This document shows positions 5,205 through 55,026 of a stretch of 64,000 nucleotides of DNA, in pieces. The position numbers and the translations under genes were made by a program. Numbering within the stretch: position 1 is the first letter of the stretch; each line of letters starts with the position of its first letter. The notes under the pieces are model-generated. The model made no database searches, was not told the origin of the DNA, and saw only the letters and a program-made list of their open reading frames with translations. The stretch comes from Halanaerobium saccharolyticum (GTDB lineage Bacteria; Bacillota; Halanaerobiia; Halanaerobiales; Halanaerobiaceae), in the NCBI RefSeq assembly GCF_003053565.1, contig NZ_QAXS01000007.1:16369-80368 (forward strand). Direction: 5' to 3'.

Positions 5205-8200
5205 ATGATGTCAACGGCAAGGGAAAGACGAAGTTTTAGTAAAATTGATGACGCGATGGACTTGCCAGATCTGATTTATACACAATTAAACTCTTATCAG
5301 TGGTTTTTAGAAGAGGGATTGCATGAGGTTTTTAATGAAATCTCTCCAATTGAAGACTTTTCTGAAAATCTGGTACTAGAATTTGTAGATTATTATTTAG
5401 AAGATCCCGAATATACAGTAGAAGAATGTCGGGATAGAGACGATACTTATTCGGCTTCTTTGCAGGTTAAGGTTCGTTTAATTAACAAGGAGACCGGTGA
5501 GGTAAAAGAACAGGAAGTATTTATGGGTGATTTTCCACTAATGACTGATAAGGCAACATTTATTATTAATGGTGCCGAAAGAGTTGTGGTAAATCAGCTG
5601 GTTAGATCATCTGGTGTTTATTTTAGTGATGAAAGAACAAAAGATGGGCGCCGTTTAATTACGGGTAGTATTATTCCTAATCGAGGTGCCTGGATAGAAT
5701 TTGAATATGATAAAAAGAGAATTATTTCTGTACGGGTTGATAGAACAAGGAAACTTCCATCAACTGTTTTGCTGCGCGCACTTGGTTTTGGAACAGACGC
5801 AGAAATCACTGATGAATTTGGAGATTCTGAAGTGCTGCATGATACTTTAGAAAGAGATAATACTGAATCCAAAGAAGAAGCCTTGATTGAATTATATAAG
5901 CGTTTACGTCCGGGAGAGCCGCCAACAGTAGAAAGTGCTACTAATCTTTTAGACTCACTGTTTTTTGACCATAAAAGATATGATATGGCAGCAGTTGGAC
6001 GTTACAAATTAAATAAAAAGTTAGAATTAGATGTAGATAAAGATCGCAAATATCTGCATATTGATGATATTGCTGCAACTGTAAAATATATGATTAAACT
6101 GATTTATAATGATCCAGAAGCATATATCGATGATATTGACCATCTTGGTAACCGCCGCTTGAAAACCGTTGGTGAACTGCTTCAGAATCAATTTAGAATT
6201 GGTCTTTCCAGAATGGAAAGAGTAGTTAGAGAGAGAATGACTATCCAGGATGTTGATGTAGTTACTCCTCAGGCTCTGATTAACACCAGACCTGTAGTAG
6301 CATCTATTCAGGAATTCTTTGGTAGTTCTCAGCTTTCTCAGTTTATGGACCAGACTAATCCAATGTCAGAGTTAACTCATAAGAGAAGATTATCTGCACT
6401 TGGACCTGGTGGTTTAAGTAGAGAAAGAGCTGGATTTGATGTGCGTGATGTTCACCACTCTCACTATGGACGTATCTGTCCGATTGAGACACCTGAGGGG
6501 CCAAACATTGGTCTGATTGGTACAATGGGAACTTATGCTAAAACAAATGAATTTGGATTTATTATGACTCCTTACCGCAGAGTTGTCGATAGTCGGGTTA
6601 CTGACGAAATTGATTACTTAACTGCTGATGAGGAAGATAAACATATAATTGCACAGGCAAATGCAGAAATAGATGAAGAAGGTAATTTCACCAATGAATT
6701 TGTTATTGCCCGTAAGCGAGGAGATATTTTAGAGGTTCATCCAGAAGACTTAGATTATATGGATGTTTCTACCAAGCAGATGGTTGGTGTGTCTGCAGCG
6801 ATGATTCCTTTCTTAGAAAATGATGATGCTAACCGTGCTCTAATGGGAGCAAATATGCAGCGTCAGGCAGTACCACTGATGATTACTGATGCACCTATGG
6901 TTGCTACAGGTATGGAATATAAGGCTGCTAAGGATTCAGGGGCAGTTATTGTAGCTGAAAAAGGTGGAGAGGTTGTTAGTGTAACTTCTAATAAAATAAT
7001 GATTAAAAATGAAGAAGGTTTAATTGACAGCTATAAATTAATGAAATATAAGAGATCCAATCAGGGAAGCTGTATGAATCAGAAGCCAATAGTTGCGAAA
7101 GGTGATCAGATTGAGGCAGGAGATATTATTGCCGATGGTGCGTCAACTGAAAAAGGTGAGATGGCACTTGGCCGCAACTCATTAATTGCTTTTATGCCCT
7201 GGGAAGGATATAACTATGAGGATGCTATTTTAATTAGTGAAAATCTAGTTAAAGAAGATGCATTTACTACTATTCATATAGAAGAACATGAAGCAGAGGC
7301 CAGAGATACAAAACTTGGTCCTGAAGAAATAACTCGTGATATTCCGAATGTAGGTGAAAACGCTCTTAAAAACTTAGATGAACGAGGAATAATTAGAGTT
7401 GGAGCCGAGGTTGAAGAGGGAGATATTCTGGTTGGTAAGGTGACTCCTAAAGGAGAAACTGAATTATCAGCAGAGGAAAGACTTCTGAGAGCAATCTTTG
7501 GTGAAAAAGCACGTGAAGTTAGAGATACTTCTTTAAAGGTGCCGCATGGTGAAGAAGGTATAGTTGTGGATGTCAAAGTCTTTTCTCGAGAACAGGGAGA
7601 TGACTTAAAACCTGGAGTTAATCGTCTAGTTAGAGTTTATGTTGCAACTAAAAGAAAGATTTCAGTAGGGGATAAACTTGCTGGTCGTCACGGTAACAAA
7701 GGTGTTATTTCGAGAATTTTACCGGAAGAAGATATGCCGTTCCTACCAAATGGTGAACCGGTAGAAGTTGTGTTAAACCCACTTGGTGTACCGTCTCGAA
7801 TGAACATTGGACAGGTATTAGAAACTCATCTTGGTATGGCAGCCAGAGCGCTGGGGATTTATACTGAAACTCCAGTCTTTAATGGTGCCTTAGAGGAAGA
7901 AGTTGAGGATATACTCGAAGAAGCCGGTCTTGCAAGAGACGGTAAAACAGTTCTTTATGATGGAAGAACTGGAGAAAGATTTGAAGAAAGAGTAACAGTT
8001 GGAGTTATGTACATTCTTAAACTCCACCACTTAGTTGATGATAAATTACATGCTCGTTCAACAGGACCTTATTCTCTTGTTACACAGCAGCCGCTGGGAG
8101 GTAAAGCTCAATTTGGTGGCCAGCGTTTTGGTGAGATGGAAGTTTGGGCACTTGAAGCTTATGGTGCCGCTTACACCTTGCAGGAAATGCTGACAGTTAA

Positions 8201-49325: not shown

Positions 49326-51575
49326 ATGGTAACTTTGGTAATTTCGGAAATAGATAAAAGAATTGGTCCTGGGGATATTGTAGGAGCTTTTATCAATGAA
49401 GCCGGGACTGCAAGTGATGATATTGGTAAAATTAATATAGATAAGAGTAAAAATAAGGCAGAAGTAGAAGTGAACTGGGAATCAGCTCCTCAGATTATTA
49501 GAGCTATGGATAATAATCAGATCGGAGGAGTTAAAGTTCAGGTAAGTGCTAAGAATCCAGATGATTTAATTGATAAGGAAATTATAAATTACTATAATAA
49601 ATTTTATGACTTAGTTGATTTGGAGAGACAGGAAGAGATAGACAGACATAAATTAGAAATTAAATATTTATCAGCCAGAGAGAGGCAGGCTAAAGGACGT
49701 GCTTTATTAGATCTGCACGGAAAAGATAATGGCAATACCTTTGGTCATCGGCCTTTAGTCAAATTTACTTCAAAATATAAGGGAGAAAAGCTGGCAGAGA
49801 CTCAAATTACACCGGGAGATCTGGTAATGATCAGTTTAGATAAACCATTACATCCAGATAATCCTACGGGAACTGTAGTAGAAAAGACTTCTTATTCAAT
49901 TACTGTTGCTTTTGAGAGTCATCCACCTGAATTTATCTATAATAAAGGCGTCAGACTGGATCTCTTTGTTAACGATACTACTTTTCAGAGAATGTTTACT
50001 GCTCTTGAAAAAATCAAACACCCTAAAAATGAACTGCAGGAGCACAAAAGAGATATACTGCTGGAAAGAAAAGAGCCTAAAGCTGCAGTTAAAACAGATT
50101 TAGAACTCGGTGGTCTCAATCAATCACAAAAAGAGGCTGTAGAAAAAGCGATGGCTGCCGAAGATATCTATTTAATTCAGGGGCCACCTGGAACTGGAAA
50201 AACTGTAACTGCAGTCGAGCTGATTGCAGAGGCGGTTGAACAGGGTGATAAAGTTCTGGCAGCTGCAGATTCTAACACAGCAGTTGATAATCTGCTGGAA
50301 CTGCTGGCCGAAAAAGAATTAAATGTAATTAGAATTGGACATCCAATTAGAGTCAATAAAAAACTGAGACAGCATACTCTTGATGAGGTAGTTATGGAGC
50401 ATCCGGATTATCTGGAGGCTGAAAAATTAAGAGATGAAGTTTCCGATTTAATAAATAAACAGGAATCATATATCTATCCAGGTGGTAAATACCGCAGAGG
50501 TTTATCTGACCAGGAAATTAAAAATTATGCTGAAAAAGATTTAGAACATCATGTAAGAGGAATAAGTCCTGAAGTAATAGATGAGATGGCCAGCTGGCTG
50601 GAACTGCAGGAAAAAATAGATAATTATTTTAAGAAAATAGAGAGGCTTGAAAATAAAGCTGTAGATGAACTTTTGGATCAGGCTGATGTAATCTGTACAA
50701 CCAATATCACTGCCGGATCAGAATTACTTGAAAATAGAAAATTTGATTTAAGTGTAATTGATGAAGCCACTCAGGCAACACAGCCTGCGGCTTTAATTCC
50801 TTATCTGAAAGCTGAAAAGACAATTTTAATTGGTGACCACAAGCAGCTGCCGCCAACAGTAGTTAATCAGGAAGCAGCCAAAAACGGATTAAGAGTATCT
50901 CTCTTTGAAAAATTGATGGAAATTTATCAGGGGGAGCTTAGTTCACTGCTCAAAACTCAGTACAGAATGAACAGAGAAATTATGGGCTTTTCCAGCATTT
51001 ACTTTTATAACAATAGTTTAAAAGCTGCTGAATCGGCAGCAGCCCAGAAGTTGAGTGATCTGGGAGTGAAAATAAATGATGAGCACTGTTTTACAGAAAA
51101 ATCACTTAACTCAGATTATCCTCTGGTATTTCTAGATACAAAAGAGATGAAGGCAAAGGAGAGGTCATTTGAAGGTTCAAATTCTTACGACAATCCGGTT
51201 GAATCAGAAATAGTTCTTGATATCCTGGATCGTGCTCTTAAATCATCTCTCTCAGAATCAGATATTGCAGTAATTGCTGCCTATAAGGATCAGGTTGACT
51301 TGATTAATCAGCATAATAGTTACGAAAATGTAGAAATAGATACAGTAGATGCTTTTCAGGGAAGAGAAAAAGAAATGATTGTTTTTACTGCTGTCCGCAG
51401 CAATTCTGAAAATAATATTGGATTTTTAAGAGATCTGCGCCGACTCAATGTTGCTTTAACCAGAGCCAAAAGGAAAATGATTTTCATTGGAGACAGCAGC
51501 ACAATTTGTGAGCATGATGCCTATGCAAAACTGCTTAAATATATAAAAAAAAGCGGACTCTATTATAAACTTTAG
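49326..51575 (+). CDS. SF1 (IGHMBP2/Upf1-like) helicase with DbpA-like N-terminus
   Basis: The 749-aa protein has a complete superfamily 1B helicase core: Walker A GPPGTGKT (near residue 285), Walker B SVIDEATQA, GDHKQLPP, QYRMN, TVDAFQGREKE and NVALTRAKRKM. The first 75 residues (KRIGPGDIVGAFINEAGTAS, then IGKINI) resemble the DbpA/CsdA-type RRM found at the C-terminus of DEAD-box RNA helicases, suggesting RNA binding. Residues 110-260 match the IGHMBP2-like beta-barrel region. The substrate may be RNA or RNA-DNA hybrids; this is inferred. ATG follows TGGAGGTG, 16 bp after dcd. Confidence 0.88.
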   Translation: MVTLVISEIDKRIGPGDIVGAFINEAGTASDDIGKINIDKSKNKAEVEVNWESAPQIIRAMDNNQIGGVKVQVSAKNPDDLIDKEIINYYNKFYDLVDLERQEEIDRHKLEIKYLSARERQAKGRALLDLHGKDNGNTFGHRPLVKFTSKYKGEKLAETQITPGDLVMISLDKPLHPDNPTGTVVEKTSYSITVAFESHPPEFIYNKGVRLDLFVNDTTFQRMFTALEKIKHPKNELQEHKRDILLERKEPKAAVKTDLELGGLNQSQKEAVEKAMAAEDIYLIQGPPGTGKTVTAVELIAEAVEQGDKVLAAADSNTAVDNLLELLAEKELNVIRIGHPIRVNKKLRQHTLDEVVMEHPDYLEAEKLRDEVSDLINKQESYIYPGGKYRRGLSDQEIKNYAEKDLEHHVRGISPEVIDEMASWLELQEKIDNYFKKIERLENKAVDELLDQADVICTTNITAGSELLENRKFDLSVIDEATQATQPAALIPYLKAEKTILIGDHKQLPPTVVNQEAAKNGLRVSLFEKLMEIYQGELSSLLKTQYRMNREIMGFSSIYFYNNSLKAAESAAAQKLSDLGVKINDEHCFTEKSLNSDYPLVFLDTKEMKAKERSFEGSNSYDNPVESEIVLDILDRALKSSLSESDIAVIAAYKDQVDLINQHNSYENVEIDTVDAFQGREKEMIVFTAVRSNSENNIGFLRDLRRLNVALTRAKRKMIFIGDSSTICEHDAYAKLLKYIKKSGLYYKL

Positions 51576-51695: not shown

Positions 51696-51724
51696 TTGAC
51701 AGCATTTAATATTTGAGATATAAT
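51696..51724 (+). promoter_or_regulatory. Perfect consensus promoter before a 48-aa gene
   Basis: TTGACA (51696-51701), 17 bp, TATAAT (51719-51724): both hexamers are exact matches to the sigma-A consensus. Confidence 0.88.
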
Positions 51725-51775
51725 TACATTATCTAAAAGAGTTCTAAAATCATTTTATAATGAGGTGGTTAATCA

Positions 51776-51922
51776 GTGGAGAGGCTGCGCCGCAAAAAGA
51801 ATTTTAGTAAGACTGAAAAAGAAGAAATCGCTAGAGAGATGGTAAAAGGCTATGAAAAAATGGCTGCAGTAAATGAAGATCTTGTTCGAAATGTTTCTCT
51901 ACTTAAGGATGGGGCTAATTAG
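51776..51922 (+). CDS. 48-aa protein resembling the tail of a MazE-type antitoxin
   Basis: GTG at 51776 lies 7 nt after GAGGTGG and opens a 48-codon frame with its own promoter and terminator. The segment EIAREMVKGYEKMAAVNEDL aligns with [20 protein letters not shown] in the antitoxin 250 bp downstream: the GY-KMA-N core is shared. The ribbon-helix-helix DNA-binding part is missing; instead there is a basic N-terminus (ERLRRKKNFSKTEK). It may be an antitoxin remnant or a free-standing toxin-binding peptide. No other family is recognised. Confidence 0.68.
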   Translation: MERLRRKKNFSKTEKEEIAREMVKGYEKMAAVNEDLVRNVSLLKDGAN

Positions 51923-51936
51923 TCTCATCTTTTTTC
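51908..51936 (+). terminator. Terminator of the 48-aa gene
   Basis: GATGGGG (51909-51915) pairs with TCTCATC (with G-T pairs) around CTAATTAG, followed by TTTTTT. The stop codon lies in the loop. Confidence 0.7.
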
Positions 51937-51966: not shown

Positions 51967-51994
51967 TTGATAATTATTCCCTGCATGATATAAT
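51967..51994 (+). promoter_or_regulatory. Promoter of the mazEF-type pair
   Basis: TTGATA (51967-51972), 16 bp, then TGATATAAT (51986-51994), an extended -10. The transcript leader is about 25 nt. Confidence 0.75.
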
Positions 51995-52027
51995 AGAAAC
52001 AGCTTAAAAACAGTGGAGGTGGGTCAG

Positions 52028-52324
52028 TTGTCCGAAAGCAGAAAACTTAATGTAGAACTGCCAGTCTATCTGGTGGAAGAAATTGAGCGTTATTGTAAAA
52101 ATAATAATCAGCAGCGAAATAACTTTTTAAATCAAGCAGTTAAATTTTATCTAAAAGAATTGAAAAAAGAAGAAGTTCGTAATCATCTCAGAGATGGATA
52201 TAAAAAAATGGCCGGTCTTAATCAGCAGTTAGCTGATGAAGGATTATCAAGTGAGTGTTACTCATATTTATGTTATGAACAGAGACTGGTGGAGTGTGAA
52301 AAAATTGAAAGTAAAAAGGGGTGA
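52028..52324 (+). CDS. mazE: MazE-type (EndoAI-like) ribbon-helix-helix antitoxin
   Basis: The antitoxin would neutralise the MazF-type RNase and repress its own promoter. The 98-aa product starts at TTG ([20 protein letters not shown]), 8 nt after GGAGG; a GTG at 52013 overlaps that site. The N-terminal RHH domain (about residues 1-45) is followed by the toxin-binding tail ([20 protein letters not shown]). Length is close to Bacillus EndoAI (93 aa). The 3' end overlaps the toxin gene by 20 nt. Confidence 0.9.
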
Positions 52325-52655
52325 TGTTTTTTACGCGAATTTAAATCCAGTCGTTGGCTCTGAACAGGGAGGAGTTAGACCTGTATTAGTTATTCAAAAT
52401 GATATTGGTAATAAATACAGTCCCACTGTTATTGTTGCTGCTATTACTTCCCGGATTAATAAAGCTAAACTACCGACTCATGTTGAAATACCAGCTGATT
52501 ATACTAATTTGGATAAAGATTCTGTTATTTTACTGGAGCAGATTAGAACCTTAGACAAAAAAAGACTGCAGCGCCACATTGCACATTTAGGTGAAGATGT
52601 GATAGAAGATGTTAATCAATCTATAGAAATAAGTCTGGGCTTAATTGAATTATAA
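52305..52655 (+). CDS. mazF: MazF/EndoA-type endoribonuclease toxin
   Basis: This sequence-specific mRNA interferase has 116 aa, the same length as Bacillus EndoA. It begins [20 protein letters not shown] and contains [12 protein letters not shown] and [20 protein letters not shown], the regions with the catalytic Arg and Thr. TTG at 52305 was chosen because it gives the canonical start and is 10 nt from TGGAG; an upstream in-frame extension lies inside the antitoxin. In Firmicutes this pair is often chromosomal and near acpS/nnr-like genes, as here. Confidence 0.94.
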
Positions 52656-52833: not shown

Positions 52834-53208
52834 ATGAAACTAAAAACTGTCAAGTCTCTTCTTAATACAGACACTATTTTTGAAGCTTCTGCTGAAAAGG
52901 ATGATCTGGAAGTGAAAAATGCCTGTGGTGCAGATTTGATGAGTGATGTACTTGCTTTTTCAAATGAAAAAACACTTTTGCTTACAGGTTTAACAAATCC
53001 CCAGGTTGTTCGAACCGCTGAGATGGTTGGGATTCAGGTTATTATTTTTGTCAGGGGAAAGGATCCACAGATAGAAACAATTTCTCTGGCCAATCAGTTA
53101 AATATCTTTTTATATTCCACAGATAAGCCTTTATTTGAAGCCTGTGGTCTTTTGTATAAAAATGGGATTGGTCCGGAAGAGATGAACTTTATAGAAACCT
53201 CCAAATAA
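52834..53208 (+). CDS. DRTGG-domain protein 1
   Basis: This 124-aa protein is of the small DRTGG-domain type that accompanies [FeFe] hydrogenase genes. Recognisable segments are CGADLMSDVLAF, LLLTGLTNPQVVRTAEMVGI and FVRGKDPQIETISLANQLNI, ending with FEACGLLYKNGI. Function is unknown; a ligand-sensing or regulatory role is usually supposed. ATG follows TATGGAGG. It is first in a run of genes leading to hydABC. Confidence 0.82.
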   Translation: MKLKTVKSLLNTDTIFEASAEKDDLEVKNACGADLMSDVLAFSNEKTLLLTGLTNPQVVRTAEMVGIQVIIFVRGKDPQIETISLANQLNIFLYSTDKPLFEACGLLYKNGIGPEEMNFIETSK

Positions 53209-53224
53209 TTGTCGGGAGTTGATT

Positions 53225-53659
53225 TTGTCTTTGCAAAAACAACAGATATTAAATAAAGAAATTGAAAGCTTTGATTTTCAAAGTGGGGGAGAGGCTTCAA
53301 GTGATTTAAAGAATATTCTGCGTAAACTGGGTGTTCCTTCAGCAATAGTTCGTAAGACAGCTATAATTACCTATGAACTTGAGATGAATGTTGTAATTCA
53401 TTCTCTGGGGGGAGAAATTACAGCTTTGATTTCAGAAGATGAACTTGAAATAAGGGTTGATGACAGTGGCCCGGGAATAGAAGATCTTGATAAGGCTTTT
53501 ACAGCAGGTTTTTCAACTGCCAGTGATGAAATTAGAGAAATGGGTTTTGGAGCTGGAATGGGCCTTGTTAATGTTAAGCGCTATGCAGATCAAATTGATG
53601 TAAAATCATCAAAAGATGATGGAACTCATGTGAAAGTAATAATTAATCTAGCAAATTAA
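53225..53659 (+). CDS. Stand-alone HATPase (anti-sigma/RsbW-like) protein
   Basis: The 144-aa GHKL-fold ATPase shows the N box TYELEMNVVIHS, G1 box DDSGPGI and G2 box FGAGMGLVNVKRYAD. There is no histidine phosphoacceptor domain, so it resembles anti-sigma kinases rather than sensor kinases. TTG at 53225 was taken (6 nt after GGGAG); TTG codons at 53219 and 53231 are alternatives. It sits between a DRTGG gene and an iron-sulfur protein in the hydrogenase locus. Confidence 0.82.
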   Translation: MSLQKQQILNKEIESFDFQSGGEASSDLKNILRKLGVPSAIVRKTAIITYELEMNVVIHSLGGEITALISEDELEIRVDDSGPGIEDLDKAFTAGFSTASDEIREMGFGAGMGLVNVKRYADQIDVKSSKDDGTHVKVIINLAN

Positions 53660-53688
53660 CTTTAACTAATCGCAGCAGGAGGTTAATA

Positions 53689-55026
53689 ATGACCAAAAAG
53701 CATTCTGTGCTCTTAAAAGAAGAAAAATGTGAGGGATGCACCAATTGTGTAAAGGGATGTCCCACTAAAGCAATTCGAGTTCATCAGGGTAAAGCCTGGA
53801 TTAAAGAGGATTTATGTATTGATTGTGCAGAGTGTATCAGAGCCTGTGAATATCACGCTAAATACACTAAAACAGATCAACTTGATCAAATCATGGAGTC
53901 CTCAGAATATCCTGTTTTATTGATTCCACCCAGTTTTTACAGTCAATTTTCAGCGGGAATTCCTGCACAGAAGATTAAAAAATCAATTATTAATTTAGGT
54001 TTTGAGGCAGTTTTTGATGTAGCAGATGCAGCTGCTGCATTATCTCGTAAAACACTTGATTTTTTAAATAATAATTCCGGTAATTATATATCAACATCCT
54101 GTCCGGTAATAGTTAGATTAATTAAACTTCAGTATCCTGATTTAATTGAGATGTTAATTCCTCTAAAATCCCCAGTCGAATTGATTGCCGAAAGAGTTGA
54201 AAGAAAACTTAAAGAAGAAAAAAATATCGATCCAGATATTTTCTTTTTAACTCCCTGTCCGGCAAAATTAACTACAGTTAAGAGAGCAATTGGTCAGAAC
54301 AAAAGTTTTTTAACCGGGGCAATTGGGGTAGAAAATATTTATCAAAAGATTTATGAATCACTTGCTGATATTGAGCTGGAAGAGAAAGAGGATCAGCTGA
54401 TTAGTCTGGCTACAATCTGGGGTAGTGAGGGTGGAGAAGAAGGTATTTTACGTTCCTGGCAGGAGCTAAACACTTTAAGTGTATCCGGGATTAAGAAAGC
54501 AAAAAAATTATTAAATGAAATCGAAAGAAACAATATTCCGGAAGCAATCAGGTATTTTGAAATCACTTCCTGTGTGGATGGATGTATTGGGGGAGTGCTG
54601 AATGTTATTAATCCATTTCAGGCTCAATTTAACTTAGAAGAAAGAATCAAAAAAATTAGACAGATAACTCAAGAACATAATTTGGTATTAAAAAAAGAAG
54701 ATGATGAATTTTATAATTTTGCTCTTTCCCAAAAGATTACTGCAGATAATATTTCTAAACTGGATAGTAATTTTAAAAAAGCAATGCAGAAACTTGAACA
54801 GCTGCAGAAAGAAATAGATATTTTGCCAGGTTTAGACTGTGCAGCCTGTGGAGCACCGGACTGCAAAACTTTTGCGGAAGATGTGATCAATGAACGAGCC
54901 AGCAGAACTGACTGTATATTTATGCTGAGGAAACAGCTCAGTAGACTGGCAGATGATCTTTCAATTCTGGCAAATGAACTTCCGCCGGTTATGGCATCTA
55001 AAAAGGAGGAAGCAGATGACAGTTAA
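53689..55026 (+). CDS. Hydrogenase-like iron-sulfur protein (HydS-type) with degenerate H-cluster motif
   Basis: The 445-aa protein begins with two ferredoxin-type [4Fe-4S] motifs (CEGCTNCVKGC and CIDCAECIRAC). A [FeFe]-hydrogenase large-subunit-like domain follows, and then a C-terminal four-Cys Fe-S domain (CAACGAPDCKTFAED...CIF). The active-site motifs are altered: STSCPVIVRL where hydrogenases have TSCCPGW, TPCPAK for MPCTAK, and SCVDGCIGG for the final Cys pair. The proton-transfer Cys or a ligand is therefore lost. A sensory or electron-transfer role next to regulators is more likely than H2 catalysis. Confidence 0.82.
   Translation: MTKKHSVLLKEEKCEGCTNCVKGCPTKAIRVHQGKAWIKEDLCIDCAECIRACEYHAKYTKTDQLDQIMESSEYPVLLIPPSFYSQFSAGIPAQKIKKSIINLGFEAVFDVADAAAALSRKTLDFLNNNSGNYISTSCPVIVRLIKLQYPDLIEMLIPLKSPVELIAERVERKLKEEKNIDPDIFFLTPCPAKLTTVKRAIGQNKSFLTGAIGVENIYQKIYESLADIELEEKEDQLISLATIWGSEGGEEGILRSWQELNTLSVSGIKKAKKLLNEIERNNIPEAIRYFEITSCVDGCIGGVLNVINPFQAQFNLEERIKKIRQITQEHNLVLKKEDDEFYNFALSQKITADNISKLDSNFKKAMQKLEQLQKEIDILPGLDCAACGAPDCKTFAEDVINERASRTDCIFMLRKQLSRLADDLSILANELPPVMASKKEEADDS

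Follow-up and report, generated by a model that had tools for sequence, protein, structure and literature searches.

Organization of the locus

The window analyzed here, a 64,000-nucleotide stretch of the 3.2 Mb genome of Halanaerobium saccharolyticum, contains a short gene directly upstream of mazE and mazF, and the small gene, its signals, mazEF and the upstream helicase gene all lie on the forward strand. The small gene (51776–51922) is a frame of 48 codons that opens with a GTG start at 51776 and closes with a TAG stop ending at 51922. Its predicted product corresponds to the tail of MazE only and, considering the frame, relatives, dN/dS, profile searches and predicted helix together, is a putative second MazF antitoxin. 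A sigma-70-type promoter precedes the gene (51696–51724: TTGACA at 51696–51701, a 17 bp spacer, and TATAAT at 51719–51724) and agrees with the consensus at 12 of 12 letters, while a ribosome binding site (GAGGTGG, 51762–51768) is located 7 nt 5' of the start codon. The unit (51696–51932) ends in an intrinsic terminator (51905–51932), a hairpin of 12 pairs followed by a T-run, the stem of which overlaps the stop codon. This hairpin is the sole terminator-like site within 1.9 kb and parts the small gene from mazEF. An exact consensus promoter, a ribosome binding site, a 48-codon frame and a terminator had all been described in the initial annotation, together with an antitoxin gene approximately 100 bp further downstream; each was borne out by our reading, with a gap of 105 bp between the small gene and mazE.

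The downstream gene, mazE (52028–52324), encodes a predicted ribbon-helix-helix (RHH) antitoxin of the EndoAI type (PDB 4ME7, E = 2.4e-8). Its TTG start at 52028 was chosen by ribosome binding site and homology, the longest frame beginning at 52013. The gene overlaps by 20 bp with mazF (52305–52655; PF02452, E = 9.9e-38), for which a TTG start was likewise set by homology and which encodes a PemK/MazF endoribonuclease toxin. The small gene therefore adjoins a type II toxin-antitoxin locus, mazEF, in which both genes are intact. An additional promoter (51967–51994; TTGATA, 16 bp, TATAAT, with a TG before the -10 hexamer; 11 of 12 consensus letters) belongs to mazEF itself, and its TATAAT was found in most Halanaerobium loci but is missing from L011–L013. 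Upstream, and outside the unit, lies a gene for an IGHMBP2-family helicase (49326–51575; TIGR00376, E = 1.1e-182), given here for context only. The region 3' of mazF (52834–55026) encodes a small conserved protein, a protein with a SpoIIAB/RsbW-like ATPase domain and a [FeFe]-hydrogenase-like iron-sulfur protein; the first of these has no NCBIfam match and is retained at the same place in Halanaerobium.

Similarity to the MazE tail and AimX

Scans of the 48-mer against Pfam and NCBIfam returned nothing, and a PHROGs scan returned weak, unnamed families only. AlphaFold2 predicted a single helix spanning residues 12–46 (pLDDT ~95 in residues 11–30), and the N-terminal RHH domain of a complete EndoAI-type MazE is not present in the 48-mer, in agreement with an earlier remark that the DNA-binding domain is missing. 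Analysis of UACAU (MazF) sites in the tail gene, mazE and mazF yielded nothing useful.

Residues M22–N33 (MVKGYEKMAAVN; 51839–51874) match the helix by which MazE and AimX bind MazF, based on alignment to 8ANV_C and published contacts (PMC10769878), and a profile and column comparison placed the homologous 12-residue segment of MazE at 52187–52222. The "GY-KMA-N" core that the two proteins had been said to have in common is well founded, as the score of the local alignment between the 48-mer and its own MazE was reached by 0 of 5000 shuffles. A profile of the family, searched against whole genomes, recovered the MazE of the window at E = 8e-7 and MazE tails in general at E-values down to 2e-8; the best score among 20,000 shuffles was 14.5 bits, versus 36.2 bits for the MazE of the window and 27.1 bits for AimX. 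When searched against the PDB using phmmer, the 48-mer alone gave AimX of phage phi3T as the top match (8ANV, E = 0.056), and the family profile gave AimX (8ANV, E = 1.9e-4) and EndoAI (4ME7, E = 0.0074). The model for staphylococcal MazE (NF041459) was matched by 19 of 26 family members (best E = 4.3e-10), at the level of homology only; the 48-mer of the window did not match it at E ≤ 1, and so lies below its curated equivalog cut-off of 108 bits. The best phage match of the 48-mer in a tblastn search, although weak (E = 2), was the gene following aimR-aimP. Judged by homology, the small protein belongs with the MazF-binding tail antitoxins represented by EndoAI, SaMazE and AimX.

Constraint is distributed in the same manner in both protein groups. 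Per-column constraint in the tail proteins correlated with that in MazE (Spearman 0.79, reached by 0 of 10000 permutations); G and Y are invariant in both, and M (M/L) and N are nearly so. The AimX-MazF interface involves M14, Y18, E20 and M21 of AimX (PMC10769878), and three of these four contacts are kept in the 48-mer, where M14, Y18 and M21 correspond to M22, Y26 and M29. The fourth, E20, corresponds to K28, and the MazE of the same genome also has K at this position.

The helix could alternatively act on a different partner, its likeness to the MazE tail reflecting ancestry only. AimX binds an unrelated phage protein, phi3T_93, in addition to MazF (PMC10769878), which makes another partner possible for the 48-mer, and Halanaerobium versions of the small protein diverge from MazE after N33. 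Nonetheless, the constrained columns are the same as those in MazE, linkage to mazEF is strict in Halanaerobiia, and the gene arrangements in genomes G014 and G081 (described below) also point to MazF, making a different partner extremely improbable.

Distribution and selection

The initial annotation had suggested looking for the same short gene beside mazEF in relatives, and this search was productive: within the order, 30 of 38 genomes carry the small gene, as do 14 of 21 other genomes of the class Halanaerobiia. All loci of the order that have this stretch on the contig place the gene immediately 5' of mazE, except that in G014. Elsewhere in the class it occurs in families f8 (5/5), f9 (G039) and f11 (8/8), in versions of ~49–58 amino acids with a fuller MazE tail (LKEGYSQMADLNLKLAEEGLMAEKEAYQ). 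Family f10 yielded no copy, and the three loci read there have mazEF without it (in two of the three, mazEF is behind an apparent alr). Four genomes of f6 with mazEF, along with G020, also have mazEF without the small gene, which indicates that it is dispensable rather than essential. When 398 genomes of the phylum were sampled, only Halanaerobiia showed a second, tail-only match next to MazE. One further genome with two matches in this sample (G132) was rejected as a tail-only carrier, as both frames are of MazE length and each sits beside a mazF. The IGHMBP2-family helicase gene (TIGR00376) stays beside the unit in Halanaerobium and several other families, and dcd takes this place in others. 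Since the upstream neighbor varies, the linkage is to mazEF and not to the other side.

Among 12 Halanaerobium genomes, the small frame has no indels, and its GTG start and TAG stop are invariant. With the window copy as reference, dN/dS of the small gene in these genomes was 0.07–0.36, and pooled pN/pS was 0.35, compared with 0.34 for the DNA-binding part of mazE; the frame is hence under purifying selection. Its signals are conserved as well. The -35 hexamer TTGACA is invariant (12/12) and the -10 hexamer TATAAT nearly so (11/12), while the 17 bp spacer is free to vary. The TGAGGTG of the ribosome binding site is conserved in nearly all Halanaerobium loci, and the terminator stem is retained in all 12 despite substitutions that turn, for instance, a G-U pair into A-U. 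Across the class, most relatives have a TTGACA-17/18-TATA(A/C)T promoter 39–84 bp 5' of the start. Three relatives have TTGACT as the -35 hexamer (L019, L022 and L025), and no good promoter candidate was seen in three others (L018, L070 and L073). Whereas the promoter is kept class-wide, the terminator is kept in several families, appearing as a GATGAGAC/GTCTCATC form outside Halanaerobium.

These data bear on whether the small gene is a mazE duplicate in decay that no longer has the part for binding DNA, as would fit its homology to only part of MazE, its clean loss in f6 and G020, and the eroded core in one genus (g6) of family f4. Conservation across the class, the low dN/dS, the invariant start and stop, and the retention of promoter and terminator all argue against this. 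Moreover, the tail resembles the MazE of its own genome no more than it resembles other MazE proteins, and is therefore old rather than a recent duplicate. Decay, which the initial annotation had listed as an option while noting that the strong signals opposed it, is accordingly refuted for Halanaerobium and highly improbable as a general explanation. In the eroded loci (L026, L027, L030 and L031), the core reads GYKKIIEKESE or similar, and in three of the four the tail gene abuts mazE as one operon with no terminator.

Relatives of the small protein were also sought among 2.9 million viral contigs, and none were found. A separate match concerned OR845010.1 (Staphylococcus phage SA 1306 Kay), an unannotated record in which positions 7418–7501 are 68% identical to the class-level tail protein; this could represent a mazE from Staphylococcus, either carried in the record or contaminating it. 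The viral search is relevant to a possible anti-addiction or anti-phage device, in which the small protein would neutralize MazF-family toxins of incoming elements or support MazE when phage proteins sequester it. Orphan antitoxins have been proposed as anti-addiction devices (PMC7354431), and AimX and phi3T_93 illustrate that phages manipulate the MazE-MazF interface (PMC10769878). The absence of viral relatives speaks against such a device, as does the position of the gene in Halanaerobiia, which is always at a chromosomal mazEF where the locus is intact. The anti-addiction role put forward in the initial annotation found no evidence of its own (there is no plasmid or viral cue, and a vertically inherited mazF lies alongside), and we consider this explanation very unlikely.

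Loci in which the tail-only protein occurs without a MazE offer natural experiments. G014 retains an intact small gene and an intact mazF but lacks mazE, with no other mazE found anywhere in the genome, although this absence could be an assembly effect. An apparent mazE end (GAGTGTGAATAA) is left as a scar before mazF at this locus (L014; G014:C19:9281-12418). In another family of Bacillota (f34), a tail-only protein of 49 amino acids is the only MazE-like match. For example, alr, the gene for the 49-amino-acid protein and mazF are consecutive in G081 (L096 and L099); in G342 (L093) and G422 (L094), the tail-only gene follows alr with mazF on a different contig, such that the toxin gene has become separated from that of the antitoxin. 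As genome-level readings of draft assemblies, the G014 and f34 cases support an antitoxin role for the tail-only protein.

They also weigh on the possibility that the small protein is a regulatory decoy, for which MazF binding would chiefly serve to shift the operator-bound MazE:MazF ratio (conditional cooperativity) or to displace MazE, the main effect being on mazEF transcription or MazE turnover. A 48-mer without an RHH domain should compete with MazE for MazF, AimX does displace MazE from MazF (PMC10769878), and nearly every locus with the small gene also encodes a full MazE. In G014 and f34, by contrast, the tail-only protein has no MazE to compete against, and we regard a decoy as unlikely.

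A putative second antitoxin outside MazE autoregulation

Toxin neutralization and operon repression are usually fused in one antitoxin. Taken together, the best explanation for the small gene is that its 48-amino-acid product is a second antitoxin of the adjoining MazF, free of a DNA-binding domain and outside MazE autoregulation, that serves as a standing buffer; based on sequence comparisons, we place the probability of this at roughly three in four. In the mechanism we infer, the 48-mer would be a free-standing copy of the toxin-binding helix of MazE, predicted to fold into one helix that would enter the groove of the MazF dimer via M22, Y26 and M29 and block its RNase activity, as AimX and SaMazE do. 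Without a DNA-binding domain, it would leave mazEF unrepressed, a task that MazE presumably performs on its own operon in H. saccharolyticum. The missing domain, together with the gene's own strong promoter and terminator, suggests that the protein is made independently of MazE autorepression. Perhaps expressed constitutively, it would take up free MazF and thereby set a threshold for toxin activation once the labile MazE is lost, providing a floor of neutralization. A constitutive neutralizer that does not repress the operon had been among the initial proposals. The neutralizer without a DNA-binding domain is the part best supported, given class-wide conservation, MazE-like constraint, the precedents of AimX and SaMazE, and lineages in which the tail-only protein is the sole MazE-like protein. 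Constitutive expression is suggested by the consensus promoter and the lack of any other conserved box, but in some relatives the gene forms one operon with mazE.

Tail-only MazF antitoxins are already known, in the form of SaMazE and AimX. The latter, from Bacillus phage phi3T and relatives (8ANV), mimics the MazE tail as a free-standing protein and resembles the 48-mer in size (~51 amino acids), in having one helix and no DNA-binding domain, and in its EMxKGYExMAAxN core. Its affinity for MazF is five times that of MazE, and it displaces MazE and blocks MazF toxicity (PMC10769878). AimX is, however, a phage gene product under AimR control, encoded after aimR-aimP in SPbeta-like phage, that acts on the MazF of a foreign host, whereas the 48-mer is encoded on the chromosome next to the mazEF of the same genome, has a promoter of its own, is inherited across a class and lacks viral relatives in the contigs searched. 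SaMazE is unusually short and binds SaMazF through residues 23–56, and its module lacks autoregulation (PMC4041440). The small protein is probably of the same short, tail-only type; SaMazE differs in being the only antitoxin of its module and in being co-transcribed with the sigB operon, whereas in Halanaerobiia the small gene, mostly a unit of its own, stands alongside a complete RHH MazE. EndoAI (MazE) of Bacillus subtilis (4ME7) has a C-terminal toxin-binding segment homologous to the 48-mer, but also an N-terminal RHH DNA-binding domain that the 48-mer lacks.

Other toxin loci are comparable in architecture. The SpoIISABC system of Bacillus has an additional small antitoxin, derived by duplication (PMC6562991), although the proteins are unrelated and SpoIISA does not belong to the MazF toxins. 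Three-component systems (Paa and epsilon-zeta) likewise comprise three genes, including an antitoxin without a DNA-binding domain (PMC3920263). In those systems a separate regulator represses, whereas MazE in the window should keep both functions, with the small protein as an extra. The open-licence papers searched contained no example of a separate tail-only gene that accompanies a complete mazEF and is ancestral to a class; work there on a second or orphan MazF antitoxin consisted mainly of general reviews, and nothing relevant was found on toxin-antitoxin systems of Halanaerobium.

More tentatively, and with somewhat less than even odds, ancestral Halanaerobiia may have had a two-tier mazEF, in which an autorepressing full MazE was accompanied by a separate, strongly expressed tail-only antitoxin that set the firing threshold and was able to replace MazE, as a cellular counterpart of AimX. 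If true, neutralization and repression would be routinely split inside one chromosomal mazEF locus, with the neutralizer outside the autoregulatory loop. This would make testable the long-debated point of how chromosomal mazEF escapes accidental firing upon MazE degradation. The small protein would also represent a cellular parallel to, and a possible source of, the phage trick of AimX, and the loci in G014 and f34 may illustrate a natural route from a full MazE to tail-only antitoxins like the staphylococcal one.
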